From Selaginella tamariscina (Eukaryota; Streptophyta; Lycopodiopsida; Selaginellales; Selaginellaceae), in the NCBI GenBank assembly GCA_003024785.1, contig PUQB01000189.1, positions 1 through 64,000 of the forward strand: a stretch of DNA of 64,000 nucleotides, given 5' to 3'. Below are positions 11,465-58,559 of the stretch, piece after piece (position 1 is the first letter of the stretch; every line of letters starts with the position of its first letter). The translations under genes and the position numbers were made by a program. The notes under the pieces were generated by a model that saw nothing but the letters and a program-made list of their open reading frames with translations, was not told the DNA's origin and did not search any database.

Positions 11465-11990
11465 ACTTGCATACTGTTTTAAGTTGTTCGATGCAGTGTG
11501 CTCGACACTCAGGTGACGGATCCGGCATTTGAACCTGTTGAGATGAACACCACCCCAAGACCGGAATCAAAGGAGCTGTATGCGTGATACAAACAGCAAC
11601 AAACTTCTCTGGACGTAAAGGAACAGACTGCAAAGACACAGACTCCAAGCGTAATACAGGAGGAGAGAGTGAAAAATCACATGTACCTTTCGACTGCTTT
11701 AACCAATCACATCCCAGAATGATGTCAAAGACCTGGGAAGGGACAACCCTAAGAGACCCAGAGGGAAACTTACAGTTGGCACCCATAACCAGCGTAGTCG
11801 AAGTGGTGTACTGTGATACTGCACGAGACTGCCCATTACCATATAAAATGTGCAAGACCTTATCTGCTCGTCTCAAGGGTAATGAGCACCGATGCGCCAG
11901 AGAAGTAGTTATGGAAGACATACTGATCCTGTATCCACAAGTACTGTGACTGAAACATCATTCACTCGTGCAGAAAATGTGAAAACTGGA
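11451..11990 (-). pseudogene. Gypsy aspartic protease region
   Basis: VLVDTGS, the active-site Asp loop, sits at the end of the gag-side frame near 11920-11940. The matching second half, IILGCDWLKQS, is near 11720-11760 in the next frame. Together they form one retropepsin domain split by a frameshift. It would cut the element's own polyprotein. Confidence 0.8.
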
Positions 11991-13158
11991 TGATTTGGTG
12001 GAACTTGCAACCCTTGATATGCATAGCGGAAAAAAATGGAGGTGGAGTTTCCATCGCACGGGATCCCTCCGTCGCCCGTACGATTACTGGTTTTCCGCAA
12101 CAGATCCACCCGCAAGAGAAGCGTCATCATCTGGAAGCTCATCATCAGACATAATGGCCGCCACAGGTACACCATCCGGAACATATGGTCGCCAGCCTGG
12201 ATGTGGTGGACGCCAATCAGGATACACATCGCATGCCCGCCAAGTATGTCCAGGTGCCCAACAGGCCCAACAATGAACTTGATTGGGTTGACCTGCATTG
12301 TTCCGATTCCTCCTGTCACGAATCCGTGGATTTTGACCACCACGGGCAGGAACTGGAGCAGGTGCAGGACGATTTCGTGGAGGTGGTCCACGGGGTGGGC
12401 CCCGAGGTCGACCACGAAAGGCTTGTCGTGCGGGCACATATGCAGCAGCATCAACCTCCATTGGATCAGCACGCTGAATAGAGGAGCAGGTAACCCAAGG
12501 GGAACACGGCCCTCACCAGGCACCAACTCAAAACGTTGAGCTAGTGCAAAAGCTTCCTCCAATGTGGTAGGACGAAGAGCCCGAACGAATCGAACAAGTT
12601 CGGGTCGCATAGTTGGCCATAACATACCGAGCTTAATGGGCTCAGGCATGTTAGGATATGCACGCCGAACTAAATCCCCGAACCTAATACTGAACCGCAT
12701 AACAGACTCACCAGGATGTTGTCGTATCGCATGCAGTTGTTGGAAAGCATCATCTGAATCCTCAACTTTGCCAAACGTACGTTTGAGGCATTCCGTTAAC
12801 CGATTACTATTGGCTTGAATCTCCGCAGCCAATCCATTATACCACTTGAGCGCAGGGCCTTCCAAACATGTAGGGAATTCTCTGAGAGCACGGGCTCATC
12901 CCAACCATGGTAACGAACAATGACTTGGAAATGATCAAACCAGTGGTATACATCATCTCCCGGATCACCACAAAAAGATCGGGGTCGAACCCTCGGATTT
13001 GTGGCTGTGAAGAAGACAAAGGAGCACTAGAAGCAGATCCCCGGCAGGAGGCTCAGGCGGGGAAGATGAGGACGAACCCTCAACAAAGCGCTTCAACAAC
13101 TTCGTTTGTGCATCAATAGCAATAATGCTAAAAGTCGTCTCCATATTCATTGTCATGG
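11950..13158 (-). pseudogene. Gypsy gag with CCHC zinc knuckle
   Basis: The capsid-like region reads GPALKWYNGLAAEI, then GESVMRFSIRFGDLVRRAYP (12865-12500), a Retrotrans_gag pattern. A zinc knuckle CWACWAPGHTWRAC (C-x2-C-x4-H-x4-C) lies in another frame at about 12250-12290. The N-terminus is probably near 13158, in a third frame. Three frames mean at least two frameshifts. Confidence 0.85.
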
Positions 13159-13209
13159 AAACAAGAAAAGGAAGAGACAAAAGAAAGGGATACCCAACTT
13201 CTCCACCAA

Positions 13210-13411
13210 TGAGAAAGCTGATATATTCAAGATGTCAGATTTCATTCAATTACAAAAACCCTGCTTATATATAGGAGACATCCTGCCATGGCATACATGC
13301 GACACATGGCGCTGACACATGGGGGCCAGATCACCACCCATGTGTCACTACGCATGTGTGTATATACACATGTGTATATACGGTATGTTACCTAATATAC
13401 AGTATCTTACA
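13210..13411 (-). repeat. 5' LTR of the gypsy element
   Basis: It is the 202-bp partner of 8506-8707 and ends TG...CA in element orientation. The downstream sequence (TTGGTGGAGAAGTTGGG) is the expected primer-binding position, but I could not match it to a common plant tRNA primer site. Confidence 0.9.
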
Positions 13412-19875: not shown

Positions 19876-21148
19876 ATGCGTAGATTTAAAAGGTTCAGAT
19901 GCCCATTAAACTTTGTTCAACGGCTCCCGAGGAGCTTTGTTGTAGGATCTTGGCCGGTTTACCAATAGAGGATTTCAGAACATGTCGGTTAGTTTGTAAG
20001 AAGTGGAGATCCGTAATCAATGCCTCCATGGACATGTGGAAAATCTACCATGAAAAAAGTGTTATGGCGGTGAGGTTCTTGAGAGCCAGAAGGAACCAGG
20101 GCGCGTACCGTATGAAAGCTAACATAGCCCGTGCTTACAGCATCCGTAAGAAGAAGGTTATTACCGTAAACATGCAGTTTCTCATGCCGTACGAGTCTGC
20201 TTTACCAATGGTAGCTGGAGGGGCCTCGTGGGGTGGGGTGTTGTAGATAACTTGAACACGATCGACTTCATTGTGGGGAACCCACTAAGAAGAGAAGAAT
20301 CTGTGCACATCCCGACCCTGCCATCCCTATGCCGGACGGTTACCAAGCCTGTCATGACCACATACAACGAGTTTGATAAGACATTCTTCAGGATCATGTC
20401 TGGTAACTCGCTCTTCGATTCTAAGCTGGGCACTTGGTTGACCATGGAGCATGTATTAGGAACGCTATGTTCCAGTACCTGGGCTGAAGTAAGTGGCGCT
20501 CACTACAACATATCGTTCTCCGGAACGATGTATCAACTTTTGCAGCTCAACTTGGATGCGAAAGGCGAAGTCAAACATCTCTGTTCATGGACACGATTGC
20601 CTGTAGATGACATTGGTGAGGGGGACATGCATGTGATTGAGATTCAGGGGAAGGTGGGTTTCATCAGTGTGAGCGACTTATCAGTGTACAAACTCAATAA
20701 AGACATAGACTGGGAGAGAGTTTCAACTGCACCAGATTGCATCAAGGCATCAGCTAGACCGCATTCTCAGACCAACAGACGCTTACGTGGGCCTCCTGTG
20801 TTCAGCACGTTTGGAAGCCTCACTCTTATTACAGTGGAGAATCGTAACAAGGCCATAATATTTGACTCGTCTAACCTAGAGTGGAAGCGAATTTGCCAGT
20901 ACCAAGGCTTCTCTATACATCCTGGTACGTTCCAAAGGGTACGGGAAGAGGTCTTATTCTTAGAGCTCGATCCAACTGTTGTTCCCCCCTTAACCCATCC
21001 ATACAACAATAATTACACTGCATCCCTAAAGTGTACCTTGTTCACGCACAGTTCAACTTCCTTGGTTTTAGGGCGTCTCGACACTAGGGTTATGGTGACA
21101 CGATTGCCTTGTCCACGGGCACAAAGTATGAAGTTGTACGTGCTTTAG
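19876..21148 (+). pseudogene. F-box protein pseudogene, copy 2
   Basis: The ATG at 19876 corresponds to that of copy 1. A lost C in the run before GAGGAGC (near 19927) shifts the frame in front of the F-box. A lost G in a G-run near 20221 shifts it again. The two open parts are 19899-20246, with the F-box EELCCRILAGLP and RLVCKKWRSVI, and 20228-21148, with the rest of the protein through MKLYVL. The second part lacks the 19-bp deletion of copy 1, so it shows the fuller C-terminus. Use of the internal ATG at 19899 could give a short F-box-only peptide of 115 residues, but I have no evidence that it is made. Confidence 0.75.
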
Positions 21149-35938: not shown

Positions 35939-37064
35939 ATGCGTGGATTTAAAACCCATCAGACTTTGTTCAACGGCTCCCCGAGGAGCTTTGCTGTATG
36001 ATCTTGGCCGGTTTACCAATAGAGGATTTCAGAACATGTCAGTTAGTTTGTAAGAAGTGGAAATCCGTAATCAATGTCTCCATAGACATGTGGAAAATCT
36101 ACCATGAAAAAAGTGTTATGGCGGTGAGGTTCTTGAACGAGGGCACGTACTGTATGAAAGGTGACATAGCCCGTGCTTACAGCATCCGTAAGAAGAAGGT
36201 TATTAACGTAACCATGCAGTTTCTCATGCCGTACAAGTCTACTTAACCAATGGTAGCTGGAGGGGGACTCGTGGGGTGTTCTAGATAACTTGAACATGAT
36301 CGACTTCATTGTGGGGAACCCACTAAGAAGAGAAGAATCTGTGCACATCCCGACCCTGCCATCCCTATGCCGGACGGTTATCAAGCCTGTCATGACCACA
36401 TACAACGAGTTTGATAAAACATTCTTCAGGATCATGTCTGGTAACTCGCTCTTCGATTCCAAGCTGGGCACTTGGTCGACCATGGAGTATGTATTAGGAA
36501 CGCTATGTTCTAATACCTGGGCTGAAGTAAGTGGCGCTCACTACAACATATCGTCCTCCGGAAGCCCTCCGGTGTATCAACTTTTGCAGCTCAACTTGGA
36601 TGCAAAAGGCGAAGTCAAACATCTCTGTTCATGGACACTGGACACGATTGCCTGTAGATGACATTGGTGAGGGGGACATGCATGTGATTGAGATTCAGGG
36701 GAAGGTGGGTTTCATCAGTGTGAGCGACTTATCAGTGTACAAACTCAATAAAGACATAGACTGGGAGAGAGTTTCAACTGCACCAGATTGCATCAAGGCA
36801 TCAGCTAGACCGCATTCTCAGACCAACAGACGCTTACGTGGGCCTGCTGTTCAGCACGTTTGGAAGCCTCACTCTTATTACAGTGGAGAATCGTAAGAAG
36901 GCCATAATATTTGACTCGTCTAACCTAGAGTGGAAGCGAATTAGTACCAAAGGCTTCTCTATACATCCTGGTACGTTCCAAAGCCGGGTACGGGAAGAGG
37001 TCTTATTCTTGGAGCTCGATCCAACTGTTGTTCCCACCCTTAACCCAGCACAGCTCTATTTTTG
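35939..37064 (+). pseudogene. F-box protein pseudogene, copy 3
   Basis: The conserved ATG at 35939 is followed by a deletion of the KRFRCPLN region and a frameshift that meets TGA at once. The F-box itself survives in the open stretch 35998-36246 (ILAGLPIEDFRTCQLVCKKWK). A TTTA-to-TTAA change gives a stop near 36245. Small insertions follow at about 36560 (extra SPPV codons) and about 36640. The 3' end reads PTLNPAQLYF and stops, shorter than copy 2. It is the most damaged of the three. Confidence 0.75.
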
Positions 37065-38200: not shown

Positions 38201-38689
38201 ATATATGCAATTTGTAACTAAAATGGGAATATCTATAGTCTCATTTTTTAAATAATTAACTAATATATGTTTAAAGAAAGAATATTATTTAAAATATATG
38301 TTTGAAGATAAAATATTCTTTAGAATATTTTATTTTTGTAATTGATTAAAAATTAATAACATTATAAAAGTAAAAGGTATTAAGTTATATATATATTATA
38401 TTTAAGATTGTATGGGCCTAATATAAAAATTATTAAAGAGCATGAGAGATACATTATATAAATATTGATGTTGTTATTAAAATATTAATATTTAAATATA
38501 ATTAATTAAATATTTGTACTAGTAATAATATATATATAATATACAAAATCATATATAATCAATCTTCCATATCTTTTTTATAAATTTATATAGTTAAGTA
38601 AACAATTTGATATCATTATTAAAGAGTTTATTATAATTATGAATATTAAATATATTATATTTATAATTTTGTAATTGCTTTAAGCTTAA

Positions 38690-39575
38690 AAAAAAATACA
38701 TTCTCTTGCAGTTTTATTAATCGTAACTTTATTAATGCTTATTGACATCCACCTATATTGAATATATTTAACATTTATAAAACATACTGGGTCTTTTTGA
38801 TTGGGAGACCACATTATATCTTTCGCTCTTATTCTTATGTCGCCTTTTTTGTGGTTTAAACTATGCAACCTTAACCATACTATTTTTGTGATTACTTAAG
38901 TGTGTCAATAATTTAACTCATCTAAATAAGTTGATTATATGACACATCTAGCGTAATGAGAACCATCATTAGTTTTTGAAGATCCTTGCAGTAATCAAAG
39001 TATGCTTTAGGTTTTTTATTTCTTTGTTTAACAAAGTGTGTGGTTTGTACTTCCACATCACTACTGACTTTTATGTCTGTACTTGTGACAGTAGGCCCTT
39101 CTAACTCTCGTACAATAGTCTCCCAATAGTCGATCACATGATTATATAGTTCTAAGTAACTAGTTGCCTTATTAGAATTTTTTGGCATCGATTTTTGAAC
39201 CCATGCCACATATTTTTTGATGCTATCAATAATAAATTTTTGTTCCTTGAGCTAGGCACTTAATGGAATAGGGTCTGGTTGTCCTTCTGGGAGAAGTGGC
39301 TTTCCATCCTTTCCACTTTTGAAAAGCATTAAGCCCTCTTTTGGTAACCACTCCTGCTCTGATGGCCGTAACTTGTACTGCATAATAAGTACCATCTCTT
39401 ATGGAGAAAATAAATTGTAGCGGCATAAGGTGACCAACTAAAGAATCGCTCCTCTCTTTAATATACTCCTTGAGAAACTTTTTGAAGTCTGGCACCTTAG
39501 TCACAAGCAAAACACAACTTTTTCTAAAGATGTAATTTTCAAAAAGATCCATTATATGCAATAAGGTAAGTGCAC
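38690..39575 (-). pseudogene. DUF7869-type protein, C-terminal fragment (copy B)
   Basis: The minus-strand frames 39561-39226 and 39209-38922 match 57297-58050 of copy C. They include a segment beginning ENYIFRKSCVLLVTKVPDF, the MQYK/EWLP-type region in a second frame, and the tail KPKAYFDYCKDLQKL. The GHTHEDID motif and everything before it were removed by the internal deletion of B. Broken by at least two frame changes. Confidence 0.6.
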
Positions 39576-40465
39576 TTCAAATGTTCGTGATGAATCGGTG
39601 GGTGTCAAAAAATCCTTCGTCAGATAGGGCACTAGAGGATTTAGTGGAAAAACTTAGCCGTGCAAGCATGTACAGAGAAGGTATTTATTATTGAATTTTT
39701 GCACTCTTAACTGATACCTATGTTTTCAAGTATTTATTTCTTGATTCTTGCTCATGTCACCAATACTTTGGCTTTCGTCTTCGCCAAGAAGAATAAACAT
39801 CGTTGGACATGATTTTATATGAACGATGCTAATCCCAAGTGCATTAATACAATTGTTCAGTTGGTTGTTAGGAATGCACTAAACAATTTCAAATTTCTAA
39901 ATGATTGGCCAGGCGTTTGTTTGCACTCCAACGGGCCTGAACCTCCATCTGATACATCGATAGCTGAGAAGGACATTTTGGGCAATGTACATTATCCAAA
40001 CATTACAAGTCAAGTTGCACAGAGCATCATCAACTTGATCAGGGGTCCTCACAGTGATGCATGGGTTTCTTACTACTGCACTAGGGAATCCGTCTTGAAT
40101 GAGTGTTACCTTCGGGATACATGTGTGTTTGCCGTTGAAAAGGATAAACCATGGTTAAGGACTTGAACAAGTGGACAGAGAGGTTCTCAACTGACTACCC
40201 CAACAAACCCATACAGGAGTATTTGGGAAAGTTCCCTCCCAAGAAGTGCGATAGCTCTAATGAAGAATATGGTTCAATGTCGGAGTCTGAGAACGATTTT
40301 GAACTAGATATTAGACCGAAAGTTATCTCGAGGAGTACAGAACATTCACTTACTCCATTGACCATGGAAAACATCAACAGAAGATACGGAAGATGTTGAA
40401 TGATCTTCCAAGCGGTTAAAACCTTCTTCGCCTCACTCAGAAGGTAACAGTGAAGAAGAATTGTT
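39576..40465 (+). pseudogene. Methyltransferase-like protein, C-terminal fragment (copy B)
   Basis: The sequence begins at a point equivalent to about 47960 of copy C (gttcgtgatgaatcgg). A short intron is likely at about 39680-39730. The frame 39819-40166 (HYPNITSQVAQSIINLIR, then SVLNECYLRDTCVFAVEKD) is the clearest version of the C-terminal region. A frame change near 40160 leads to the Ser/Glu-rich tail. The FDY of copies A and C is SYY here, so the motif is decaying. Functional call as for 47095-50117. Confidence 0.4.
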
Positions 40466-40674
40466 AATAATTGTTAGAGTGACGAATAGTTGTAAATGAG
40501 TGTACATAAGGCATTTTTATATATTTCGTTTATATTTGTAGAAAATAAATTCTCAAGGATTAAAGAAGCTTTTAGTTCAAACATGGGCACACATTAACAA
40601 GGTAAATAATATACCTTGATAATTATAAGGCCAGCTAACTATCATTTTGCAAATGTAATGAAACAGTTGAGAAC

Positions 40675-41808
40675 ATGGATTTTCAGCATTGGCATGAGGT
40701 AAGAGAGGTTTGGTGAAAATTTCTTGTGCCACATGTCAGAATGATAGAGTTCATGTAGAAATAGATAATAATGCAGCTCAAAACATCCTTATATGGGGAC
40801 CACTTCAGTTTTTACATCACCATTTCTATTGCCTTCAATTCCTAAATCACTTTCTTCGTCGCCTTTAATTATCTTAATCTTGTAAGGATGATGTACAAGT
40901 AAATGATAAAGAGATTGGCAACAATATAACATCAACAGATAAATGTGAAAGGGACCAAACAAGTGAGTTACAAAGCATTCGAGAGGCAATGCTACCCCTA
41001 GTTACCCATGGTTATTGTGTTGTTGTGTTTTGCTTCATTAAAAAGGCTCAAGGATAGAAAAAAAGAAATCAAACAAGGAGATTTCATTTATTGTCATGAT
41101 AAATTTCGATATGATATCATTTTTCGCCCAGGGTTGGACCGTCTCTTTCAAAAGCTTAAGGAGATGGGTGCACTTGTGGGGATTTGGTCATGCATGTAGA
41201 TTCACAATTTGAGACCATTGCTGAATTGGCTTAAGAAATATTGTAGTGTTATAAAATAGGTGATTCGTAAATATTGGCGAATATATTACAAACCTCTTAA
41301 ATTTTACGATATAACAAAGAAAAACAAGCCATACTTCTTCAAGAATGAAAGATTAATTATGCTTCATTGGGAGATTAATTAGTTAAGGATAATAAAGAAC
41401 GCACATATCTTAGTGGTAGATGACTCACCTCAAAAGGCTATGCTTAACCAAAACATTGTTTGTATCTATTTAATTACTTTCGACCCATATTTTAATATCA
41501 ATACCATAGATGAGCTAGTGAATTACTTGAATACGTGCTTTAGAAAGAAGAATTTTGAGAACTTTTGTGAGCAATATCCACCATATCAAATATATCTTGA
41601 AGCTTTTCTTTCTCGTGATTTTGAATTTTATAAATTGAAGAAGAGTAATCGCGCGCTTTATAATATTATTTTTAAGGAACGTTATGTTTTAGATAAGCCT
41701 TTATGCATTCATGTTCTTATCATATCTTATGTATTAACAAGGATGGCAACTCCTAACTGCATTCGTGAGAGTGTTAAGTGGTGGCAACAACATAAAGATA
41801 TTGATTAA
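40675..41808 (+). pseudogene. FCP1/NIF-type phosphatase-like gene (copy B)
   Basis: Related to 664-1870. The DVNG nucleophile loop has been lost by a deletion near 41020, although RYDIIFRPGLDRLFQKLKEM (about 41106-41166) and the DDSPQKAMLNQN motif (41413 onward) remain. Several stops intervene. The final frame to 41808 (ILVVDDSP region to QQHKDID) is the longest open part. Confidence 0.6.
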
Positions 41809-42182
41809 AATGATTCAATTAATTTGGAGAGTGATGACTTAAACAAAATGATGAGATTTCTTTGTATCGTTAAGGAGAAAATATTTACAAATAGATTAAC
41901 AGGTTGATAAGAAAATGATTTCATTTATAATTATGTTTGATAGTATTTTTTAATTATTGTAAATTATTTTTACAATGAAAAATAATATAAAATTCTAAAA
42001 TACTTTAGGAATATTCCTTACTAAGTAAGGTAAATGAAGGATTAATTTGTTAATTAATTAATATTTAAGTCTTAATTATATATTTATTAAATAATTAATT
42101 AATAATTAAAACTTAAATAACAATTTATTTTATATTCCCATTTTCATGTATCATTCTCATTTTAGTTACAACTTACATAAAT

Positions 42183-43600: not shown

Positions 43601-44133
43601 AATTAATATTTAAACAACATTGTATGTACGATTTGTAAAGAATTTCAATAAAGACATAACTCACAATTTGATAACATTCATCGTATTGATAACTTATAAT
43701 TTAATAACATTCGTCGTATTGATAAATAGAATTGGTCAGTAATATAAAGAATTATTTTTTAAATTATTCATAAACTTCTAAAAGAGTTAAAAAGTCTTAC
43801 TTTTGTAAGGTCTATATAAACACTTGGGACTTAAGTCTATCTTGATGTCGTAGCTTTATACATTAACATTTTTATATCTTCACATATGAGTTTGTACATG
43901 AGAATCAAGTTAACAATAAAAGTTTTATTTTTTTTAAAGTATATTTGATTTTCATTAACTATCTATATAAAAAAGGATTCTCATGGACGTTACACAATTA
44001 ATTTGGACCATCAAATTAGCATTAGACTAACTAAATGGGTAATATACATAAACATACATCGTGAATTTGTTCACTTCTTTTTCAATACTCTTTATGAAAT
44101 TTCACATACATGTTTGACATTAACACACACACA

Positions 44134-44382
44134 CATTATTTACTCTCTCTGACTCGTATAAATACCCATATGTTTGGTAAGTATACCCTTATATAATTAT
44201 TAGTATAAATTCATTATAGAAAAATTTTAAGTAATTGTTTACACACACAATATATCACACACACTCTAAAAGTGTGTGAATATATATAAAATGTGATGAT
44301 ACAAGCATACATCATAAATTTGTTCACTTTTTTTTCAATATTTTCTATGAAATTTCACACACATGTTTAACATTAACACATG

Positions 44383-44437
<55 letters not shown>

Positions 44438-44463
44438 TGAAAGTGTATGTGACATATATAGTG

Positions 44464-44495
<32 letters not shown>

Positions 44496-45330
44496 GTGTG
44501 TGTGATGATACATAAACATACATCATCAATTTGTTCATTTCTTTTCCAACACTAAATTTTGCACATGTTTGACATTAAAACAAACACACACACAATTTGC
44601 TCTTTCTCATGTGGTCATACACAAAACCACGTAAACATTATCTCTCTCTTGTAATCTCTCCCTCTCTCTCACACACTTTGAAAGTGTGATATATATAACA
44701 TACATCATGAATTTGTTCACTCTCTATGAAATTTCACACACATGACATTAACACACACACACATTATTTACTCTCTCTGACTCGTATAAATACCCATATG
44801 TTTGGTAAGTATACCCTTATATAATTATTAGTATAAATTCATTATAGAAAAATTTTAAGTAATTGTTTACACACACAATATATCACACACACTCTAAAAG
44901 TGTGTGATATATATATAAAATGTGATGATACAAGCATACATCATAAATTTGTTCACTTTTTTTTCAATATTTTCTATGAAATTTCACACACATGTTTAAC
45001 ATTAACACATGTTCTCTCTCTTTCACACACACACACTTTGAAAGTGTATGTGACATATATATGTGTGTGATGATACATAAATATACATCATGAATTTGTT
45101 CATTTCTTTTCCAACACTAAATTTTGCACATGTTTGACATTAAAACAAACACACACACAATTTGCTCTTTCTCATGTGGTCATACACAAAACCACATAAA
45201 CATTATCTCTCTCTTTTAATCTCTCCCTCTCTCTCACACACACACACTTTGAAAGTGTGATATATATATAACGTACATCATGATTTATTCACTCTCTATG
45301 AAATTTCACACACATGTTTGACATTAATAC
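44134..45330. repeat. Tandem repeat with ACTTTGAAAGT hairpins
   Basis: A unit of roughly 560-630 bp occurs twice. The block cattatttactctctctgac is at 44134 and 44762, and ttttccaacactaaattttg is at 44542 and 45107. Each unit has three short palindromes of the type cacactttgaaagtgtg or cactctaaaagtgtg: near 44263, 44434 and 44672, then 44890, 45032 and 45245. They sit next to CA, CT and TA microsatellites (CT run about 44384-44404, CA run about 44405-44434). The repeat continues beyond transposon C near 58556-58750, so C inserted into it. Confidence 0.75.
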
Positions 45331-45365
45331 ACACACTATTTGCTCTCTCTCACTCACGTGGTTAT

Positions 45366-45392
45366 ATGCATGTTGTAACTAAAGTGGGCATG
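45366..45392. repeat. Left terminal inverted repeat of transposon C
   Basis: Pairs with 58529-58555, two mismatches in 27 bp. Preceded by target duplication TTAT. Confidence 0.85.
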
Positions 45393-45423
45393 ATACGTGA
45401 AAATGGGAATATAAAATAAATTA

Positions 45424-46652
45424 CTAATGATAAAGGGATAGGCAACGATACAGTGTCAACAGATAAATGTGAAAGAAGTGAGTTGCAAAGTATTTAAGAG
45501 GTAATGCTACCCCATGTTAACCATGGCTATATTGTGTTGTTAAATGTCAATGGTGTTTTGCTTCATCGACAAAGGCCCGAGGATAGGAAAAAAGAAATCA
45601 AACAAGGAGATTTCATTCCTTGTCATAATAAATTTCGATATATATTATTTTTCGTCTAGGGTTGAACTGTCTCTTTCAAAAGCTTAAGGAAATGGGTGTA
45701 CTTGTGGGGATTTGGTCATGCATGCAGATTCACAACTTGACACTGTTACTGAATTTGCTTAAGAAACATTGTAGTGTTGCAGAAGAGGTAATTCGTAAAA
45801 ATTAGATTTTTGACCAACGAGTATGTTATAAACCTCTTGAATTTCACAATATAAGAAAGAAAAGCAATCCATACTTCTTCAAGAATGAAAGATTAATTGG
45901 GACTCATGGGGAGATCAATCACTTAAGGATAATGAAGAACGCACATATCTTAGTGGTAGACGACTCTCTTCAGAAGGCTATGCTCAATCAAAACATTGCT
46001 TGTATTCATCCAATCACTTTTGACCCATATTCTGATACCGATACCATGGATGAGCTAGTGAACTACTTGGATATGTGCCTCAGAAAGAAGAATTTCAAAA
46101 ACTTTTGTAAGCAATATCTACCGTATCAAACATTTCTTAAAGTTTTTCTTTCTCTTGATTTTGAGTTTTATAAAATGAAGGATAGCAACCGGACACTTTA
46201 CAATATTGTTCTTAAGGAATGTCATTTTATAGATGAACCTTTATGCATACTTGATCTTATCACATCTTATGTATTAACAAAGATGGCAACTCCCAATTAC
46301 ATTCGTGAGAGTGTTAAGTAGTGGCAACAACATCAAGATATTGACCAAAATGATTTGATTAATCCGGAGAGTGATGATTTAGAAAAATAAGGAGATTTCT
46401 TTATATAGTTAGGAAGAAAGTATTTATAAAAAAATTAACATGTTGGTAAGGAAATGATTTCATTTGTAATTAATTTTTTAATTATTGTAAACTATTTTTA
46501 GAATGAAGAATAATATGAATATTTTAAGATATTTTAGGAATATTCCTTACTAAGTAAGGTTATTGAAGAATTAATTTATTAATTAATTAATATTTAAGGC
46601 TTAATTACAAATTAATTAAATAATTAATTAATAATTAAAACTTAAGTATTAA
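45424..46652 (+). pseudogene. FCP1-like gene 3' part, inside an inverted segment of C
   Basis: This 1.2-kb segment of copy C lies in the opposite orientation to the rest. It carries the HAD loop as LLNVNGVLLHR (first Asp changed to Asn, so the nucleophile is lost), the RPG region and, at 45932-46321, the DDSLQKAMLNQN motif and C-terminus (DDSP changed to DDSL). The AT-rich element tail follows to about 46650. The sequence joins the 5' part of the gene (46653-46886, minus) only if the segment is flipped back. Stops are present too. Confidence 0.65.
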
Positions 46653-46886
46653 TTTACATGTACATCATTCTTACAAGATTCAGATATTGCAGGCGCTGAA
46701 GAAAGTGATTTCGAAACTGAAGTCAATAGAAATCGTGATGAAAAAACTGAAGTGGTCCTCATGGTAACGAATGTTTTGAGCTACATTATTATCCATTTTC
46801 CTGCATGAACTCTGTCATTCTGACATGTGGCACAAGAAATTTTTGCCAAACCCCTCTCTTACCTCATGGCAATGCTGAAAATCCAT
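46653..46886 (-). pseudogene. FCP1-like gene 5' part (copy C)
   Basis: On the minus strand from the ATG at 46886 this matches 664-890 of copy A: the MDFQHCHE exon, donor GAG|GTAAGAG, then the MTEFMQEMDNNAAQN region. It breaks off at gatgtacatgtaaatt, the inversion border. Confidence 0.6.
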
Positions 46887-47094
46887 GTTCTCAATGTTTC
46901 ATTACATCTGCAAAATGATAATTAGCTGACCTTATAATTATCAAGGTATATTATTTACCTTGTTAATGTGTGACCCATGTTTGAACTAAAAGCTTCATTA
47001 ATCCTTGAGAATTTATTTTCTGTACAAATATAAACGAAATATACAAAAATGCCTTATGTTACACTCATTTACAACTTTCATCACTTTAAGAACT

Positions 47095-50000
47095 CATTAA
47101 CAATTCTTCTTCGCTATTACCTTCTGAGTGAGGCAAGAAGGTCTAGGCCGCTTGTGAGATGGTTCATGATCTTCTGTATCTTCTGTTGATGTTTCCATGG
47201 GTAATGGAGTGTGTGAATGTTCTGTACTCCTCGAGATAACTTCCGGTCTAATATCTGATTGAAGTTCGTCCTCAGACTCCGACATTGAACCAGATTCGTC
47301 TTCAGAGCTATCGCACTTCTCGGGAGGGAACTTTCCAAATACTCCTGTATGGGTTTGTTGGGTAGTCAGTTGAGAACCTCTCTATCCACTTGTTCAGGTC
47401 CTCAACCATGGTCTTATCCTTTTCAACAGCAAACACAGTAAGGTAACACTCCTTCAAGACGGACCCCCTAGTGCAGTAGTCAAAAACCCACGCATCACTG
47501 TGAGGACCCCTGATCAAGTTGACGATGCTCCGCTTGACTTGTGATGTTTGGATAACGTACATTGCCGAATACGTCCTTTCAGCTATTGGTGTATCGGATG
47601 GAGGTTCAGGCCGTTGGAGTGCAAACAGATGCCTGTCCAGTCATTTGAAAGTTTGAAATTGTTTGGCGCATTCCTAACAACCAAGTGAACAACCGTATCA
47701 ATGCACTTGGATTAGCATCATCATATAAAATCCTGTCCAACGATGTTTATTCTTCTTGGCAAAGGCGAAGGCAAAAGTATCGTGACATGAGCAAGAATCA
47801 AGAAATAAATACCTGAAAACGTAGTATCAATGAAGAGTGCAAGCATGAATTCAATAATAAATACCTTCTTGTACATGCTTGCACGGCTAAGTTTCTCCAC
47901 CAAATCCTCTAATGTCCTGTCTGTCGAAGGATTTTTTGACACCTCGCCGATCCATCACGAACAATTGAAACGGTTTCCTACAAGCAGTGATGTTACCCCA
48001 TAAAAGTCTGAATCCAACAACAAACATCTGTAGGGCTTGTCGTGATTCGTAGCATCCTCCTTTATAAGGTTCAACTCGGTTCTCCGCTGCTGAAGGACTG
48101 CCATAAGAGAAGGCGTCATCGCAATGTTCTCCTTTTTGGCGTTGGCGTGCAATAGATTCTTGCCCAGATCTTCCGATTGATTCACCCATTCGACAAGCAT
48201 ATCATCGTTTGTCACATGCAAATATTTGCTGACCTCTTCGTATGTTGGCCGAGGTCCAACCCAGTTTGTGGCAGTGTATTCCCAACCACTCCTTGAAGTG
48301 CCTGACCGTCTTCAACTCCATTGCCTTGACATGAAAAGGAGAGGTGGGGCTGCTGTTGTTAATTTATAGTTTGCCATCAATCACCAAATCAGCCAAGACT
48401 TCCATCTCCTCCATCGTTGTTCCATTTAAAGGCTTCAACCATGTGAGCTTGAAATCGTTGTCTACATCCTTTGTAGATTGAACAGACTTAGCCTTCGGCG
48501 TCTTACTGGGTTTCTTTGCAGACTTTTCTGAGGCTCCCCTTCACTTGTCTGCTTCTTCTTCAGTGTTCCTTTTGAAAAGGATTCCATAATCCCCAACCAT
48601 TTGGCAAAGATCCTATCCGGACAAGAAATCAACATCATCAAAAAGGATGTTTCCTTCCCGCCCACCTGGGCAAAATCAACTGCTACAATTTCTTCAACTC
48701 TCTGAAAAAAAAGACAGATTAATATACCGGCGAGATAAATCCCCCCAACAATTTACTTACCCGTACATCGCACATTGTGTATTCCCTGCAGTAGCTCTTT
48801 GTGGTCGCTGAAGAGATTCCCACACGGCTGCGTTTGAACTTCTCCCATATTTTGCTGTTGTAGTGGTTGGTGTCGCAGCGTCCCATTCCGCCGATAACTT
48901 ATGGTACTCGATTGTGAGATTCGGCTTAGCTAAAAACGCCGATCTTTTCGTCAGCTTCTCACGGGTATGCTCGGAAAGTTTTGTTGCCATCGTTCCTTTG
49001 TTGTGTTCATCGAGAAGTCGTTGGGCTGCCGTTATTTGTGTTGGCCACTAATGATGTAGTACTTGATTGATTTTCTATTCTCCGTCTGAATTTCATGATT
49101 TGTTCTGTGTTGTGATCCACACTTTGTCAGCGCCTTTGTTTCTTTCGTAGTATGGGCACAAAACAGCATTATGTGGAACGGTGTAAGAATTGTCGTCCTT
49201 CATCTTCTCCATGAGCTCAGCTACACGTTCCTGGTTGAGTGGCCTGTAATTGAAGTTTGGGTTGACGCTGCAATACTTAACCCTACACTCATAAATCCTA
49301 TCATCCAACATCATTTCCTTGTGGCTTATTGCAGCATGGGATGCCACAGGTGCAGCTGACAAAACGACTGATGATTTTCTTTTACGATCCGAATCAACAT
49401 GTGTGATCCCCGATTGATGCTGTTCTAATGTTCTCGGCACACTCTTCCAGCTCCCGAAGTTTTCTAAGCAAATTGAACGTGATCTGTAAAGAACCTGAGA
49501 CCGAGCCACCCTCTCAATCTCTTATGATGTCGCTGTGTTCTTCTTCAATGTGAAGAGGGACGATTGCTCCACTGTATAAGAATACACCTACTCGATGAGT
49601 CTGAAGATCTTCGAAGTAGACATCTAATTGGATCCCCTCCATAGATGGGCTTTCGTTGAGTTGAAGAAGAACTCCACGGTCAACATCATTAGTGAACACG
49701 TGAACATCATTATCCACAAGTCGACAAGACCACCCAAGATTAATGTTGTAACTGGCGACCTCTGGATCCGAGAACGTGACATTGGATGGAACAAGGCATA
49801 TGTGTCGAGCATCGTTCAATCTGGGTTCGCAGCATGCTTTCGGATGCTTACTAGCACATCCACTTTCCATTGTTTTGCTTGTCCATGCGATGTGACAGAG
49901 GTTAGTTTGACAGCAACCATGGTTGTTCCAATGCGCTTCCCGTTTAGTTTGAAATATGGCCAAGTTGATTCCAGAATCCCCCTGCCCATCTCTTCTGCTC

Positions 50001-50117
50001 TCGTCTTCAATGTCACCTCAATTCCACATCTGAATACAAAAATGATTAGTTCTTCAAGCACATATCCGAGTATAGATTTTATTTTAATTCTTACCCAGAA
50101 TTTGACGACGACTCCAT
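47095..50117 (-). pseudogene. ParB-like / amino-DNA-methyltransferase-like gene
   Basis: This is the large minus-strand gene of copy C. The ATG at 50117 opens a short exon; probable introns are 50094-50030 and 48760-48702. The N-terminal part (VTLKTRAEEMGRGI, WPYFKLNGKRIGTT) is unrecognised. Next comes a ParB/sulfiredoxin-like pattern: VNPNFNYRPLNQERVAELMEK (about 49265-49200), then YYIISGQHK and, one frame on, ITAAQRLLDEH (about 49061-48990). In ParB-type domains this is the N-R and GxHR..AA signature. After a linker, LLLDSDFYGVTS (about 48020) could be the DPPY motif IV, and YPNITSQ-like plus DAWVFDYCTRGS and VFAVEKD (about 47540-47410) motifs X and I. The tail is acidic and Ser-rich. Several frameshifts make it a pseudogene. 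All functional reading is inference from motif order. Confidence 0.45.
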
Positions 50118-50286
50118 ACTAATGACTCAATCTCCTTGTTTGATCAAATCGTCCTTCTGCAAAATAATACACTATGAATACAATCATATAAAAACGCACA
50201 CACACTTGTATAAACCCGAATATACAAAATAATACACAGAAAATTCACATACACCCTCTTTATCTCAGAGAGAAGTGGATGGGATT

Positions 50287-50372
50287 AACTGTCCAAAGCT
50301 CACATTTGTGCTAGTGCAAAAGAAAATAACATTTGGTTTTAGAACCACCACAAATGTGAGCTTTGGACAGTT
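50287..50372. repeat. 24-bp perfect inverted repeat (hairpin)
   Basis: The arms 50287-50310 and 50349-50372 are exact reverse complements (aactgtccaaagctcacatt... in the left arm) around a 38-bp loop. It lies between the start of the methyltransferase-like gene and palindrome array 1. It could be a promoter or terminator hairpin or a small foldback element. Confidence 0.85.
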
Positions 50373-50465
50373 TTACATGCTTTTACTCGAAATATTATGA
50401 TAAGATGATAAAAATAAATGAGATATGCAACTTATATATACTAATACACATATATATTACATGAA

Positions 50466-51456
50466 GGTGGGCGGGATTAATCCGCCACCCTTCTATGCCT
50501 CCTAAAGATGGTGGCGGGATTAATCTCGCCACCTTTCTGGAGCCCTGAATGGGTGTGCAGATTAATCCTGCCACCCTTCTCGGTCTCAGAGAGAACTGGG
50601 CAGGATTTATTTGGCACACCCCTTCAGTGGCTCCAGAAAGGTGGCGGGATTAATCTCGCCCACCATGTAAGGGATGGTGAAATGAATCTCGCCACCCTTC
50701 TATCCCCTCCATTAGTATTGTAAACCTTCTACGTCTCAGACAGAGAAGTTTGGGATTGGTTCGACTCACCAATGGAGGAAAAAAAGAAGGGTGGCGGATT
50801 CATCCCTCCACCAGGCATAGAAGGTCGGTGGGATTAATCCCCGCCCAGGCCCTTTACGTAGGCCATGGGCGGCAGATTAATCTCGCCGCACGCCCATGCC
50901 TGCGTGGAATCTAGCGGGATTAATCCTGCTGCCTAGGCCCTTTAAACAGGCCATTGGCGACGGGATAAATCCCGCCAAATTCCATGCAGGGCATGCGTAG
51001 GCGGCGGGATTAATCCCACCGCCCAGGCTCTTCACGAAGGCCATTGGCAACGGGATTAATCCTGCCGCCTGCCGGGATTAATCTCACTGCCTAGGCCCTT
51101 TAGACATGCCATTGGCGATAGGATAAATCCTGCAGGATTCCGCGCAAGGCATGCATAGGTGGTGGGCCATGGGCGGCGAGATTAATCCCGCCGCTCTTCG
51201 GTTAGCCTCATGAGCGATGGAATTAATCCTGCCGCTCATGAGGGTAACCGAATAGCCTGCCTAAAGGGCAGCGAGATTAATCCTGCCGCTCATGAGGGTA
51301 ATGGATAAGTGGTGAGATTAATCCCGCCACTGAGGCTCTAATAATATAGCGGCGGGATTAATCCCGCCACCCGCGGGGCTAACCATATAGTGGTGGGATT
51401 AATCCCGCCGCTCGTGGGGCTAACCAAAGAGTGGCGGGATTAATCCCGCCGCTACA
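50466..51456. repeat. Palindrome array 1 (about 22 units)
   Basis: Variants of the 18-bp palindrome GGCGGGATTAATCCCGCC recur about every 45 bp. Nearly perfect ones lie at about 51349, 51391 and 51432. Degenerate units keep the ATTAAT core and complementary GC arms. Between 50820 and 51140 the spacers form a second palindrome (aggccctttac...aggcc), so hairpins alternate. The array begins about 350 bp upstream of the minus-strand gene start. It is not coding. Confidence 0.9.
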
Positions 51457-51606
51457 CACACATATATATATGTATATGTATATGTGTAGGAAAGTGCGTG
51501 TTGTGCCAGAGATAAACAAATTAGATAAAATTATTGTGATACACACACACATGTATATGTATATATATATCGTGCTAAATAAATTAAATTATACAAATAC
51601 ACACAC

Positions 51607-51637
<31 letters not shown>

Positions 51638-51927
51638 GTATATATATGTATATGTATAGTATATACAGGAGTGTGCGTGAGATAAATAAATAAATAAAAT
51701 TATACAAATACTGATACACATAATATATGTATGTATATATGTACATAGGTATATATATTGTGTATATGTATATAGTGTGTATGCGTGTGTGAGCGAAACA
51801 AATAAAATCATACAGATAAACAAACACACACACACACACATATATATATATACAAGAGTGTGCGTGCGTGTGCAAGAGATAAAATTAATAAATTAATAAA
51901 ATTATACAGATACACAAACACACACAC

Positions 51928-51962
<35 letters not shown>

Positions 51963-52020
51963 GGAGTGTGCGTGTGTGTGCGAGAGATAGATAAATAAAT
52001 TATATTATTAAGATTCATAG
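51457..52020. repeat. CA/TG/TA microsatellites, core of transposon C
   Basis: Repeated blocks of CA, TA and TG tracts alternate with gagataaataaataaaatt, with a period near 130 bp (for example gtgtgcgtg at about 51672, 51852 and 51964). A long TG run is at about 51932-51958. Open frames here are repeat translations only. Confidence 0.8.
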
Positions 52021-52025
52021 CCGCC

Positions 52026-52110
52026 GCCGCCTTGCTTCTTAAAACCCTAAGAATATACCTAAACCCTAAAGGAACAAATATTCCTTCTAAGAATATACTT
52101 AAACCCTAAA
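52026..52110. repeat. Degenerate telomere-like motifs
   Basis: AAACCCTAA-type motifs occur at about 52044, 52060 and 52101, and a separate run of three to four TTTAGGG units (gggtttagggtttaggg) at 52488-52510. TTTAGGG is the usual plant telomere unit. Only a few units are present, so these are interstitial traces. Confidence 0.7.
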
Positions 52111-52324
52111 AAGAATAAAATATAGATTCGCCCTAAACGAATATTCTTTCATTATATTATCAGTGTGTACGTGTGCGTGGGTGTATCACATACACCTCAA
52201 AAATATAAATTATGCAAGGGTTTAACATGTGTGTGTCCATGAGAGTGTTAAAGTTTCACGTGTATAATACTATGTTTATATATATGTATTACTACATATT
52301 ATACATATTAGTACATAATATTAG

Positions 52325-52915
52325 AGAGACAGAGTACATATTATGGATCATGCATGGTGTGTATGTATGAGAGAATTGAGAGAGTGTTAACAAATTAAAT
52401 TCATTATTAATACACATATATACATACACACATGTATATACACAAACATACATACATATTACATGTGTAAATTCAATGTGTTACATAGGGTTTAGGGTTT
52501 AGGGTTTAGGATGGATCATGCATGGTGTGTATGTATGAGACAAGAGAGAGTGTTAAAAAATTAATTTTTTACGCATTGCATATATTAGTACACATATATA
52601 CATACACATATTATACACAGATATACAATGTCATACATAGTACATAATATTGTAACATCAGTACATATTATGGATCATGCATGGTGTGTATGTATGAGAG
52701 AAGAGAGATAGGTTACATATTATGGATCATGATCATGCATGGTGTGTATGGGTGACACTGTGAATGTATGAGAGAAGAGAGAGAGTGTTAACAAATTAAA
52801 ATCGTACACATTGCATATATTAGTACACATATATACATACACATGTGTATACACACAGACATACATATATGTTACATGTGTAAATTCAATGTGTTACATA
52901 CACACAGACTAAGTA
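52325..52915. repeat. Irregular tandem repeat with atggatcatgcatggtgtg
   Basis: The block atggatcatgcatggtgtg occurs near 52343, 52512, 52671 and 52723. It is followed by gtatgtatgagagaagagag and then acacatatatacatacaca. Unit length is roughly 160-190 bp, with one shortened unit. No gene. Confidence 0.75.
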
Positions 52916-53054
52916 CATATAGATCATACATGCGTTGAACATGATGTTTTTTAATAAAGAAGCAACATATTTCTCAAGTTTGGTTTAGGGCAATGTGCAT
53001 GTGTGTGCATATGTGTCTCTGTAAGTTAAATTTATGATTGTGTTTATATATGTG

Positions 53055-53679
53055 TACAAAACAAACATCGAATAATTAAGAAAATAATATTAATAAACAC
53101 ACTATGAACATATTTTAAATTATACATAATAATATATGATTTTATCTAATATATAACCATATATAGTTTTAATAATATATATTAATTTAATATTGATAAT
53201 AAGGTTTAACACTGGAATATTCTTGAAAAAATAAGAATTTAATTGAAAATATATACAAATGTAGATCAAGTACTAAAATAATTAACTAAATTAATTATGA
53301 TAATCATGTTTAATATTGGAATATTCTTGGAATAATAAGAAAATAATAAAGAATATCCAATTAATATAAAGAAGATTAATTACTCAAGTAATTAAGAAAA
53401 TGATATTAATATACACACTATGAACATATTTTAAATTATACATAATAATACATCATTTTATCTAATATATAGTCATATATAGTTTTAATAATATATATTA
53501 ATTTAATATTGATAATAAGGTTTAACATAGGAATATTCTTGAAATAATTAAGAATAAGACTAATTTAATTATGATAATCAGGTTTAATATTTGAATATTT
53601 TTGAATATTAAGAAAGTAATAATAATAAACAGACTTTGAATATATTTTAAATAATACATAATAATATATCAATTTATTT

Positions 53680-53735
<56 letters not shown>

Positions 53736-53760
53736 TAATAATATATACTGGAATATTAAG
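53055..53760. repeat. ~310-bp AT-rich tandem repeat and TA run
   Basis: The block starting with aacacactatgaacatatttt occurs near 53095 and, as tacacactatgaacatatttt, near 53411. A third, degenerate copy begins near 53627. The repeated text includes taatatatattaatttaatattgataataagg. A TA run of about 50 bp lies at 53682-53731. Confidence 0.75.
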
Positions 53761-54314
53761 AATGTAAAATAATTACAAAAATTTCGTAATATTAAACAGC
53801 TTAAATCACTTAAATGATATTAAATGCAATTTTAAAACACTCATTGGAATTGGATAGTATATATATCAGAGTGTCAGTTATTTATGTCAACTCATCATAA
53901 ATTTTATTTTTTGTTCTTTTCAAAAATTTTGAATTTTTGACATAAGTATTGTCGGTCTAACATGTAAATTTAAAAATGCATTTAATTTCCTATTCAAATT
54001 CAATCTGGTTCTTTCTCTGGCAAGGGTTTCTTCATTTCTTTATTTTCACTCTTCAGATTTTCTTTTTTCTTCATAGTGATCAGCTTAGGAGCGACATTAA
54101 ATTAGGTGCGCTATTGTTTATAAGAAAGCACGGCGCCTTCAGTACTGTTTACAAGTAAGTATTATAAACAAATTTAGATATAGTTATAAAGATTCACTCT
54201 CTTACATTCTCTTTGAAAATTAGAATTTAGGGGTTTAGAAATGCATTAGGATTACAATATATTCCATTAGGGATTTATCTTATTTAAATATCCTTTTAAC
54301 TTAATATTTCGGTT

Positions 54315-55040
54315 AGCCGGGGCGACGGGATTAATCCGGCCATTTCTTTTTCGCCTCTTAAAAGAGGTGGCGGGATTAATCCTGCCACTATCTTTTTAAT
54401 AGCCATGGCAGAATTAGTCCGGGCAATGCTTCTCCGCCTCTGAAAAAGAGCAGCGGAATTAATCCCGTTGATAACTCTCTTAACTGATAAAAAGTTACCT
54501 AAATTTATTAAAAAATTGTTGGCGGGATTAATCCCGCCAACCATTCTAGGAGGCAGAGAAGGGGTGGCGGGATTAATCTCACCACTACTTCCCTATTTTA
54601 AAGATTTGTGAGCAGAATTTATCTCGAGATCTCTTTGAAATCATAGCTTTGGAGAGAGTTGTGGGCGGGATTAATCCCGCCACTCATTCCCCGTCATAAG
54701 AGTTGTGGGCGGGATTAATCTCGCTGCCTCTTCCTCGTCGAAGGGAGTTGCGGCAGGATTAATCCCGCTGCCTCTTCCTCATCAGAGGTGTCCGCAGTAG
54801 GATTAATCCTATCGCCTCTCTCCGACAAGGAAGATCTGGTGGCGAGATTAATCCCATCGACTTCTCCGAAGGGGTAGAGTCGTCAGCGAGATTAATCCTG
54901 CCAATCTCTCCGAAGGGTAGCTTCGTCGGCGGGATTAATCCTACCGACTCACTCCAAAGGGGTAGAATCTGCGGCGGGATTAATCCCGCTCACTGTTCCT
55001 CGTCGGAGGGAGTCGTGGGCAGGATTAATCCCATCCATCA
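54315..55040. repeat. Palindrome array 2 (about 16 units)
   Basis: The same palindrome as array 1, spaced about 42-50 bp. Examples are ttggcgggattaatcccgcc at about 54520 and gtgggcgggattaatcccgc at about 54661. Spacers share tcttcctcgtc and gaagggtag text, which array 1 lacks. The array ends about 150 bp before the ATG at 55189, mirroring the place of array 1 before the divergent gene. Confidence 0.9.
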
Positions 55041-55188
55041 GTTGTATTAATGAAAGCATGAGATATTATCTTTATACATAATTATGTATTATTGCACATG
55101 CATATTATTAAGCAACCCCAATTCAGATTTCATAGAAATATTATAAACAGATATCATAAATAACACAATTATTTATGTGTAGGACAAT

Positions 55189-58100
55189 ATGTTTAATACT
55201 GGAGATAAAGTATGTCTTCTTCGGAACAACGAGATAGTTGGCACTGGAACTGTGGAAGTTCGAGATGATAATGCATCATGTCACAATATTGCCCAAGGAT
55301 CTGTGTGTACGTATGGGTGAATACCATTTACAAGCATGTTGAGTTCCAGGAATGGAATTTGAGGAGGGTTCTCCTGTATTGTGGAATTTGGATGAAGTCA
55401 AGGCTGACACAGAATATGTAGAGTCACAAACAAATAGTAGCACGAGTTCACCAGATGATGGCTTGCCTGCTGTGATGGATGAGGTGATTCTCTTTCTTCA
55501 TGAGATTGAGGTTGGGAGAGGCATCATCACAGCTATAAATCCAATGGAAGCAGTGTCAGAAGAGAAACTAGGGGCCGACTTCGTGGGTGTAGTTGTGACA
55601 AGGTTTCACCTAATGGCACATTGCATCCTGGATCCCTCGTGAGGTGGCGAACATTTGAATTAAGACGGCAAGATGGTTCAACATATTCTGGATTGGATTT
55701 CAATAATAACAACCCAGAAGAACTACCCATATTTGAAGGTTCCTTATTTGGTCCTATTATAAGAAAAAGGCGATTCATGGGTTGCAAATTTCCCCTACAA
55801 GTTTCGGCAAGAGGGTCAAGATGGATCCTACATCTTCTGAAAGTGTTACGAGCATTTCCACGATTGACTGCTGTAAGAAGAAGTGTTGTCAGATGGTAGA
55901 CCGGAATGAAATTACCCAATGTAGATATGTCTTTCGTATGCTCACCAAAAGCAAAGGCATGAGTTTGTATATGCTGCACTAACTGGGTGTATTGATGGAA
56001 TGGCCTCGGACACAGGTTATCAGAGTACATCCATGGTATTTAATAAGGTGGCCATCTGCTTCAAAGCTTGGTACAGTATATACAGGGATCCCAAAGACCA
56101 CATTCTACCATCGAGGGATGAGTGGCTAGATGGAGCGCGAACCTCAGTTCATGGGAACACTCGCTTGGTCAAAACCCGCTCTCATATTATGGTAGCCATA
56201 GAGATACTCAAGGCTTTTGTGGAAGCAAATGCAGACAGGATGCCTCACAAAGCCGAACCACAAATGCAGGGGTCAGGGAAAATCTCAAGGTTTTGCCTTC
56301 AATCTACACTCAATTGAAGCTGTGTGAACATGTGAACAAGTGCCTCAGTTTGATGGGGTTCAAGCAATCTGCATTAGTACCTTCAACAACATATGGAATA
56401 CTCATTTTAAGGATGTGGAGATTGCAAAACACTTTAGCTTTTCTAAGTGTGAACTTGTACATCATTGAAGGCTACAGAGGCTTGTGCAAAAACCTTGGTG
56501 GAGATCACTACTATTCAAAAGAAGATGGAAGGCCCACATGATTGCACAACAAACTTGCCGGTCTCAACTATGCACACGCATGCTTTCTGTGTCACGCCCA
56601 TCAGAGTACTTGTGCTTATCCATGACAAGATGGATCATTCAAAGACCAACATTCCAAAGCTCGTTACAACACCAAAGTGCCTTGGAAATGTCATGAAACT
56701 TCCAATTTCATTTACAAGTGTGCTAACACATAGACGGTTGTGAGTCATATGACACTTTTCACTTCCACATTGGTCTAGCGACTCCAATTTCACTATTGGG
56801 TCGTTGGCCATGTATTTCAGAAACCTTGAAGCCCACTTATAAACAAGTCCTATCAGTGATCTCAAAGTGAAGAAACAACACCTTTAACCTTTACATAATG
56901 CTCTCATGAACATGTCTACACTTGAGGCTACTTGGGAATATGAGAGGCATTGTCAGCAGCCTGCACAAAAAATAGATGGCCCTGTTGAGAGTTCTAGTTC
57001 AGTGGAGGGATCTAGCTCAAATAATGTACATGTGTCCTCAACATCAAATAAGCTTCCTCGTCATTTGCTTTTACAGATGGAATAATTGTGCAGGCGAGAA
57101 CAAAAATAAGTAAATCATTTTACTTAAGGGTTTCTCAAGCTCATACTTACTTTTATTTTCTAGATATGTGCTAGCATACTTGTCAATGCTTGTTGCCAAA
57201 GGTGTGTTTGAGACAATCACTCAGTTTCCTTATGGTTGGTCACACTCATGAAGATATTGATGTGTTCTTCAGCAAGGTCTCCAACTCTACAAAAAGGACA
57301 AGTGCACTTACCTTACCGCATATGATGAATCTTTTTAAAAACTGCATCTCCAAAAAAAGTTGTGCTTTGCTTGTGACTGAGGTGCCAGACTTCAAAAAAT
57401 TTCTCAAGGAGTATATAAAAGAGGGAGTGATTCTTTAGTTGGTCACTTTGTGCCGCTACAATTTTTTTCTTTATACGAAATGGTATACCTATTATGCAGT
57501 ACAAGTTACGGCCATCAGAGCAGGAGTGGTTACCGAAAGAGGGCTTAATGCTCTTCAAAAGTGGAGAGGATGGAAAGCCACTTCTCCTAGAAGGACAACC
57601 AGACCCTATTCCATTGAGTGCCCAGCTCAAGGAACAAGAGGTTATTATTGATGACATCAAAAAATACGTGGCATGGGTTTAAAAATTGATGCCAAAGAAT
57701 TCTGATAAGGCAACTGGTTACTCAAACTATATAAGCATGTGGTTAACTATTGGGAGACTGCTATGAGAGTTAGAAGGGCTTACTGTCACAAGTACAGAAT
57801 TGCAACACCCTTTTTGGCCTAAAACAAGGTGGCGAGAGGAGATTGAAATGACATTATTAAGCACAGACAACATGGAAGCTAGTAGTGATGTGAAAGTGCA
57901 AACCCCACACTATGTTGGACAAAGGAACAAAAACCTAAAGCATACTTTGATTGCTGCAAGGATCTTCAAAAACTAATGATGGTCCTCATTACTCCAGATG
58001 TGTCATATAATCAGCTTATTTGGATAGGTCAAATTATTGACACACCTAAGTAATCACAAAAAATAGTATGGTTAAGGTTGCATGGTTCAAACCACAAAAA

Positions 58101-58281
58101 AGGCGACACGAAAGGAGAGCGAAAGATATAATGAATGCCTAGAGAAAACATGGTCTCCCAATCAAAAAGACCCAGCATGTTTTATAAATGTTAAATCCAT
58201 TCGATATGGATGGATGTCAAGAAGCGTTGATAAAGTCATGATTAATAAAACTGCAAGAGAATGTATGTTTTCTGAAGCTTA
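55189..58281 (+). pseudogene. DUF7869-type protein, candidate transposase
   Basis: This is the plus-strand gene of copy C. The N-terminus reads GDKVCLLRNNEIVGTGTVEV, then GRGIITAINPMEAVSEEKLG, two copies of a short beta-rich pattern I have no name for. Then come DCCKKKCCQMVDRNE (55860-55910), a zinc-ligand-like Cys cluster, HDKMDH (56621-56638), an ENKNK segment before a 64-bp intron (57110-57173), YVLAYLSMLVAKGVFE-type sequence, and GHTHEDID (57238-57261). The tail has QYKLRPSEQEWLPKEGLMLF. The order of acidic motifs (HDKMD, then MDN/GENKN, then HTHEDID) is that of the DUF7869 family as I remember it and would suit an RNase H-fold DDE enzyme. Many frame changes and stops make it a pseudogene. 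The transposase role is inference. Confidence 0.5.
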
Positions 58282-58528
58282 AAGCAATTATAAAATTATA
58301 AAATATCGTATATTTAATATTCATAATTATTATAAACTCTTTAATAATAGTACCAAATTGTTTACTTAACTATATAAATTTATAAAACGATAAAGAGTCG
58401 ATTACAAAAGAGAATATTCTAAAGAATATTCTATTTTCAAACATATATTCTAAAGAATATTCCTTTAATATTAAAAAATGCTAATTAAATAGCTAAAATT
58501 GCTAATTATTAAGAAATGGGACTATAGC

Positions 58529-58555
58529 CATGCCCATTTTAGTTACAACTTGCAT
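58529..58555. repeat. Right terminal inverted repeat of transposon C
   Basis: Pairs with 45366-45392. Followed by target duplication TTAT at 58556-58559. Confidence 0.85.
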
Positions 58556-58559
58556 TTAT

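Follow-up and report, generated by a model that had tools for sequence, protein, structure and literature searches.

Sola1 is a superfamily of DDE transposons, and in bivalves its members generally rank with the longest elements (passages of PMC10294476), and SOLA elements are also prominent in a seedless land plant, the fern Azolla, according to a passage that gives no element anatomy (PMC6786969). The described element closest in layout is Sola1-1_Ec32, a 21.5-kb Sola1 of the brown alga Ectocarpus, which according to the accessible passages of its description encodes a transposase and, on the opposite strand, a ParB/methyltransferase-like protein of 1104 amino acids; similar proteins of other algae are cited there (PMC12477816). 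Among the matches listed in a search of PubMed Central (PMC), this paper was the only one to mention Sola1, transposon, ParB and methyltransferase together. Here we analyse 64,000 nucleotides from Selaginella tamariscina (contig PUQB01000189.1, positions 1 to 64,000; hereafter the window), which contain copies of a giant cut-and-paste DNA transposon, typically about 14.6 kb long, highly amplified and in our judgement likely to be a Sola1 element. The copy at 45366-58555, element A, is old and broken.

Ends, target sites and copies of the element

Element A is 13,190 bp long and is placed in the window, together with its target sites and two further copies, as follows.

44607 to 44650, no strand: unoccupied target form in the adjoining repeat (sequence comparison)
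45362 to 45365, no strand: left target-site duplication TTAT (read from the sequence)
45366 to 45392, plus strand: left terminal inverted repeat, ATGCATGTTGTAACTAAAGTGGGCATG (end comparison, terminal 21-mer count)
58529 to 58555, minus strand: right terminal inverted repeat (end comparison, terminal 21-mer count)
58556 to 58559, no strand: right target-site duplication TTAT (read from the sequence)
38205 to 42178, minus strand: copy B, an internally deleted relative of 3,974 bp (sequence comparison)
1 to 2144, minus strand: copy C, truncated by the contig start to its left 2.1 kb (sequence comparison)

The 27-bp inverted ends, ATGCATGTTGTAACTAAAGTGGGCATG from 45366 on and its inverted partner up to 58555, pair with two mismatches, TTAT stands on both sides, and a neighbouring repeat copy carries the empty target, which reads gtggTCATacacaaaacc. 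The preliminary description of this DNA, which had proposed a single DNA transposon with such ends, a TTAT duplication and an unoccupied target in the adjoining repeat, is thus borne out in all three respects. The region 44039-45355 is a local array of related repeats and the source of this empty site. The terminal 21-mer is found at five places in the window at up to three mismatches as compared to none in 100 shuffles. Like left ends with differing flanks are present at 18 of the 19 genome loci other than A, L018 being the exception, which fixes the element boundary at ATGCA. Neither a tRNA nor an Rfam match was found anywhere in the window.

Copy B has kept both ends and lost the element bases between 2604 and 11935. 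It is flanked by ATAT at the low side and AAAT at the high side; empty paralogous sites lie near 5,540 and 22,080, and the joined flanks match the second of these with a 4-base gap. For copy C unoccupied paralogous flanks are found in the window near 19,036 and 35,170.

The host assembly (300,702,823 bases, in which the window is contig C492) was searched with both end patterns at up to two mismatches, using the reversed patterns as controls. The left end occurs at 1,929 places (966 + 963) and the right end at 1,670 (869 + 801), each reversed control giving 0. When ends were paired within the same contig range, less than 20 kb apart and in correct orientation, using the first places listed (100 left and 82 right ends), at least 41 of the 100 left ends paired with a listed right end, as compared to two pairs in wrong orientation. 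Among these matches listed, the paired lengths have a median of 14.6 kb and range from 7.1 to 18.6 kb, with 31 of 41 between 13 and 15.5 kb. Many copies thus share the same pair of ends, as the preliminary description had proposed to check, and the family is abundant and recently amplified in this plant; we estimate its share of the genome at about 3%, if 31% of left ends belong to full-length copies, to about 9%, if all do.

A 4-bp target duplication, previously read from A, holds in five of the seven copies read at both ends, with a 1-nucleotide end indel allowed in two of them: TTAT in A and likewise in the copy joined from L034 and L039, ACTT at L015, ATAT in the copy joined from L032 and L040, provided that its right end lost one base, and TCAT in the C904 copy, provided that its left end reads ATTGCACG. 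In copy B the flanks (ATTT and ATAT in element orientation) are alike at three of four bases, and at L026, where the right end is ambiguous, they are so at best. Terminal inverted repeats, target duplication, empty sites and many copies with the same end pair together are what a cut-and-paste transposon leaves. Two loci show further arrangements. At L015, positions 1346-2754 hold a short derivative of 1.4 kb that has kept both ends and shows a perfect ACTT duplication; near 9705-9721 of L034 two left ends in head-to-head orientation are separated by about 16 bases, which suggests that one copy inserted beside another already present.

Genes and palindrome arrays

Inside its ends, element A is organized as follows.

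45419 to 46654, minus strand: segment inverted in copy A only, as far as seen (orientation against other copies)
45485 to 46426, plus strand: FCP1/NIF-like phosphatase gene, decayed in A (71% identity to the open reading frame, ORF, at locus L028)
47097 to 50118, minus strand: left gene block, broken in A (sequence comparison; no profile match)
about 47397 to 48245, minus strand: methyltransferase-like C-terminal part of the left block (motifs)
about 48697 to 49494, minus strand: ParB-like part of the left block (motifs)
50463 to 51455, no strand: palindrome array 1, whose GGCGGGATTAATCCCGCC-like units contain 16 exact GATTAATC cores at intervals of about 41-44 bp or multiples of this
51456 to 54320, no strand: AT-rich and microsatellite-rich core between the arrays
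54321 to 55040, no strand: palindrome array 2, containing 13 exact GATTAATC cores at intervals of mostly 43-45 bp
55180 to 58276, plus strand: probable transposase gene (DUF7869), frameshifted in A (Pfam and sequence comparison)

The DUF7869 gene, for which Pfam gives a match at 57175-57435 with an E-value of 9.1e-19, is probably the transposase of the element. A transposase relative is modelled with an RNase-H-like D-D-E core in a predicted structure. For the transposase as a whole, about 1,000 amino acids long, the models predict one and probably two N-terminal Tudor/SH3-like domains, a helical DNA-binding-like segment, the RNase-H-like D-D-E core and a C-terminal BAH-like domain. In the relative P0012 (model m214c0c38474a) residues 931-1043 form this BAH-like domain, which is matched by the plant histone readers EBS and SHL. 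The DUF7869 alignment found no match among PDB sequences, and a PMC literature search found no paper using the term DUF7869. In the genome all 62 scored copies are open save for one in-frame stop each, and the ratio of nonsynonymous to synonymous substitution rates (dN/dS) of the N-terminal half is 0.20, a value from five differences only. Transposase and ParB-like matches are divergent and 7.8-8.4 kb apart on at least the contigs C857, C607, C803 and C904.

The left gene contains the motifs PLNQERVAELM..VP..V..YYIISGQHTITAAQRL, in what we take to be the order of a ParB N-domain, and DAWVFDY..GSVLKEC...FAVEKD, in what is presumably the order of a permuted methyltransferase end. Its unbroken ORFs in the C904 copy (L041) have 478, 304 and 266 amino acids. 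The ParB-like exon matches at 142 of 142 genome places scored among 5,535 candidates; 141 of these are free of stops, and the open frames reach up to 496 amino acids. N4/N6 methyltransferases carry DPPY-type and FxGxG catalytic motifs; in the copies the presumed places of these motifs read VMDRR or alike and DYCTRGSV, so that the methyltransferase end, if it has this fold at all, is probably inactive. No Pfam, NCBIfam, PHROG or relevant PDB profile matches the left gene for ParB or methyltransferase, and homologues were found neither at E≤0.001 among 1,091 candidates nor in the phage collection. In the PDB search residues 257-295 of the middle ORF match a designed toroid at 1e-4. The structure model of the ParB exon, built from four near-identical rows only, has a mean confidence score (pLDDT) of 38.8.

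The FCP1-like gene usually shares its strand with the remainder of the left block. The segment of about element bases 54-1289 has the opposite orientation to A in copies B and C and at all 18 mapped genome loci (L015, L021-L037), so that this 1.24-kb internal inversion, with breakpoints just inside the left end, looks private to copy A, where it would have flipped the gene. The inversion, like copies B and C, had been missed in the preliminary description. NIF (PF03031) matches the unbroken L028 ORF at 1.3e-12, with 48.1 bits against a cutoff of 21.8, and copy C of the window at 1.1e-7 with stops read as residues, and the gene of copy A, read through, has no NIF match in Pfam; the C904 copy contains an unbroken FCP1-like ORF of 261 amino acids (part). 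FCP1/NIF phosphatases have the catalytic motif DxDx(T/V). The ORFs at L028, L031 and L032 read LDVNGVL, that is DVNGV in its place, with the second aspartate replaced. PDB searches with the FCP1-like gene gave no relevant match.

The arrays lie upstream of the two gene blocks, with exact cores at 50475-51438 (16, left block) and 54329-55023 (13, right block). They contain 29 of the 32 GATTAATC sites of the window, where 0.08 are expected from resampling the same 1.86 kb, and 19 of 27 core spacings are 40-46 bp, the GGCGGGATTAATCCCGCC palindrome having a period of about 44 bp. Eleven of 17 other 10-kb loci have at least ten cores, with 40-46 bp as the commonest spacing; the other six have 0 to 4, and several of these do not span both arrays or are broken up by other elements. 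Among the 29 units, C>T or G>A changes make up 50 of the 63 differences from the consensus, and 22 of these fall on the two CG dinucleotides, as deamination of methylated cytosine would give. Of the contents named in the preliminary description, the DUF7869-type gene, the FCP1-like phosphatase (through copy C and L028) and the divergent gene blocks of A are confirmed, and the hairpin-rich core resolves into two arrays of one palindrome. The ParB/methyltransferase-like gene stands in part: its motifs are visible and its layout fits Sola1-1_Ec32, and no profile search backs the naming.

Classification and surroundings of the element

To which superfamily does the element belong? Sola1 elements make 4-bp target duplications, and the element shares this feature. 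Like Sola1-1_Ec32, it is a giant DNA transposon with a probable transposase and, on the opposite strand, a long protein that here by its motifs looks ParB-like and methyltransferase-like, a comparison by description of layout from passages of the Ectocarpus paper (PMC12477816). The earlier statement that no named superfamily has this combination does not hold in view of that element, and we infer membership in Sola1. The left gene has three ORFs here, as compared to the 1104 amino acids in the alga. A third, FCP1/NIF-like gene, phased palindrome arrays, degenerate methyltransferase motifs and about 1,900 left ends are found here, features that those passages on the alga do not mention. Among the matches listed in PMC, no description of an FCP1-like gene or of palindrome arrays in such an element was found. 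Alternatively, elements with DUF7869 could form a DDE superfamily of their own that has the 4-bp duplication and the ParB/methyltransferase partner in common with Sola1 by exchange of accessory genes. The lack of an available direct sequence link to Sola1 favours this view; against it speak the same layout in Sola1-1_Ec32 (passages of PMC12477816) and the SOLA elements reported from ferns (PMC6786969, in the passage cited above), and we consider it unlikely. Very improbable is a CACTA/EnSpm-like element, with N-terminal Transposase_23-like domains and repeat arrays of the kind bound by TNPA. The motif arrays recall such elements, and there are weak Transposase_23 matches (0.024, and 0.00066 on P0012, below the curated cutoff). 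CACTA/EnSpm elements, however, have CACTA/G ends and 3-bp duplications, whereas the ends here start with ATGCA and the duplication has 4 bp, and no CACTA transposase family is among the Pfam matches. This possibility and that of a host gene duplication were dropped on account of termini, duplication and empty sites.

Two further doubts concern the genes beside the transposase. The likeness of the left gene to ParB and methyltransferases could be due to chance, as the lack of profile, PDB, phage and database matches would suggest, but both motif orders occur in one block, which moreover is divergent from the transposase as in Sola1-1_Ec32 (PMC12477816, passages), making coincidence a rather poor explanation. 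Somewhat unlikely as well is that the accessory genes are captured passengers useless to the element (Pack-type capture). The DVNGV sequence, methyltransferase-like motifs that are degenerate even in copies with open frames, and accessory-gene dN/dS values of 0.48, 0.75, 0.78 and 0.99, showing no clear constraint, argue for passengers; the recurrence of the accessory segments in the examined copies, many with open frames, and the ParB-like exon, free of stops at nearly all scored places, argue against them.

Elsewhere in the window, tandemly duplicated blocks at 3356-4348, 20150-21145 and about 36000-37000 include a gene (RLPEELCCRILAGLPIENFRTCRLVCKKW) that we take to be F-box-like; the largest tandem blocks measure 3.5-5.4 kb and are 84-91% identical. 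At 8500-13411 retrotransposon-like ORFs on the minus strand, Ty3/gypsy by eye, lie between repeats of about 208 bp that are 93% identical.

Proposed mode of action

How could such an element move and persist? A cut-and-paste mechanism with a 4-bp stagger, driven by the probable DUF7869 transposase, has good support: this enzyme would bind to the 27-bp ends, cut the element out and reinsert it. The ParB-like/methyltransferase-like and FCP1/NIF-like genes would be accessory to this process. Because of their position and periodicity, the palindromes are likely sites for an element-encoded protein, the ParB-like protein or the transposase, that may regulate or protect both promoters. VANDAL Mutator-like elements, which carry the anti-silencing protein VANC, would be similar in that an element-coded protein possibly acts on the element's own motif arrays, and differ in that no VANC-like protein is seen here. 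It could be imagined, although we regard this extension as doubtful, that the element carries its own chromatin-recognition system, in which both arrays, 18-bp sites every ~44 bp or roughly four helical turns, are bound by a ParB-like protein whose methyltransferase end has no catalytic activity. This protein would keep host silencing from closing the promoters, and the transposase would read chromatin through its Tudor-like and BAH-like domains. If true, such a system could account for the nearly 2,000 copies that this 14.6-kb element has reached.

To the known Sola1 layout the family adds an FCP1-like gene, phased arrays, degenerate catalytic motifs and its copy number, and DUF7869, a domain of unknown function, can be assigned a probable role as the catalytic core of a DDE transposase. 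A gene layout like that of an algal Sola1 is now found in a plant, whose copies of the family are young and numerous enough for study, and the phased palindromes provide a site at which self-DNA recognition by a giant element can be tested directly.

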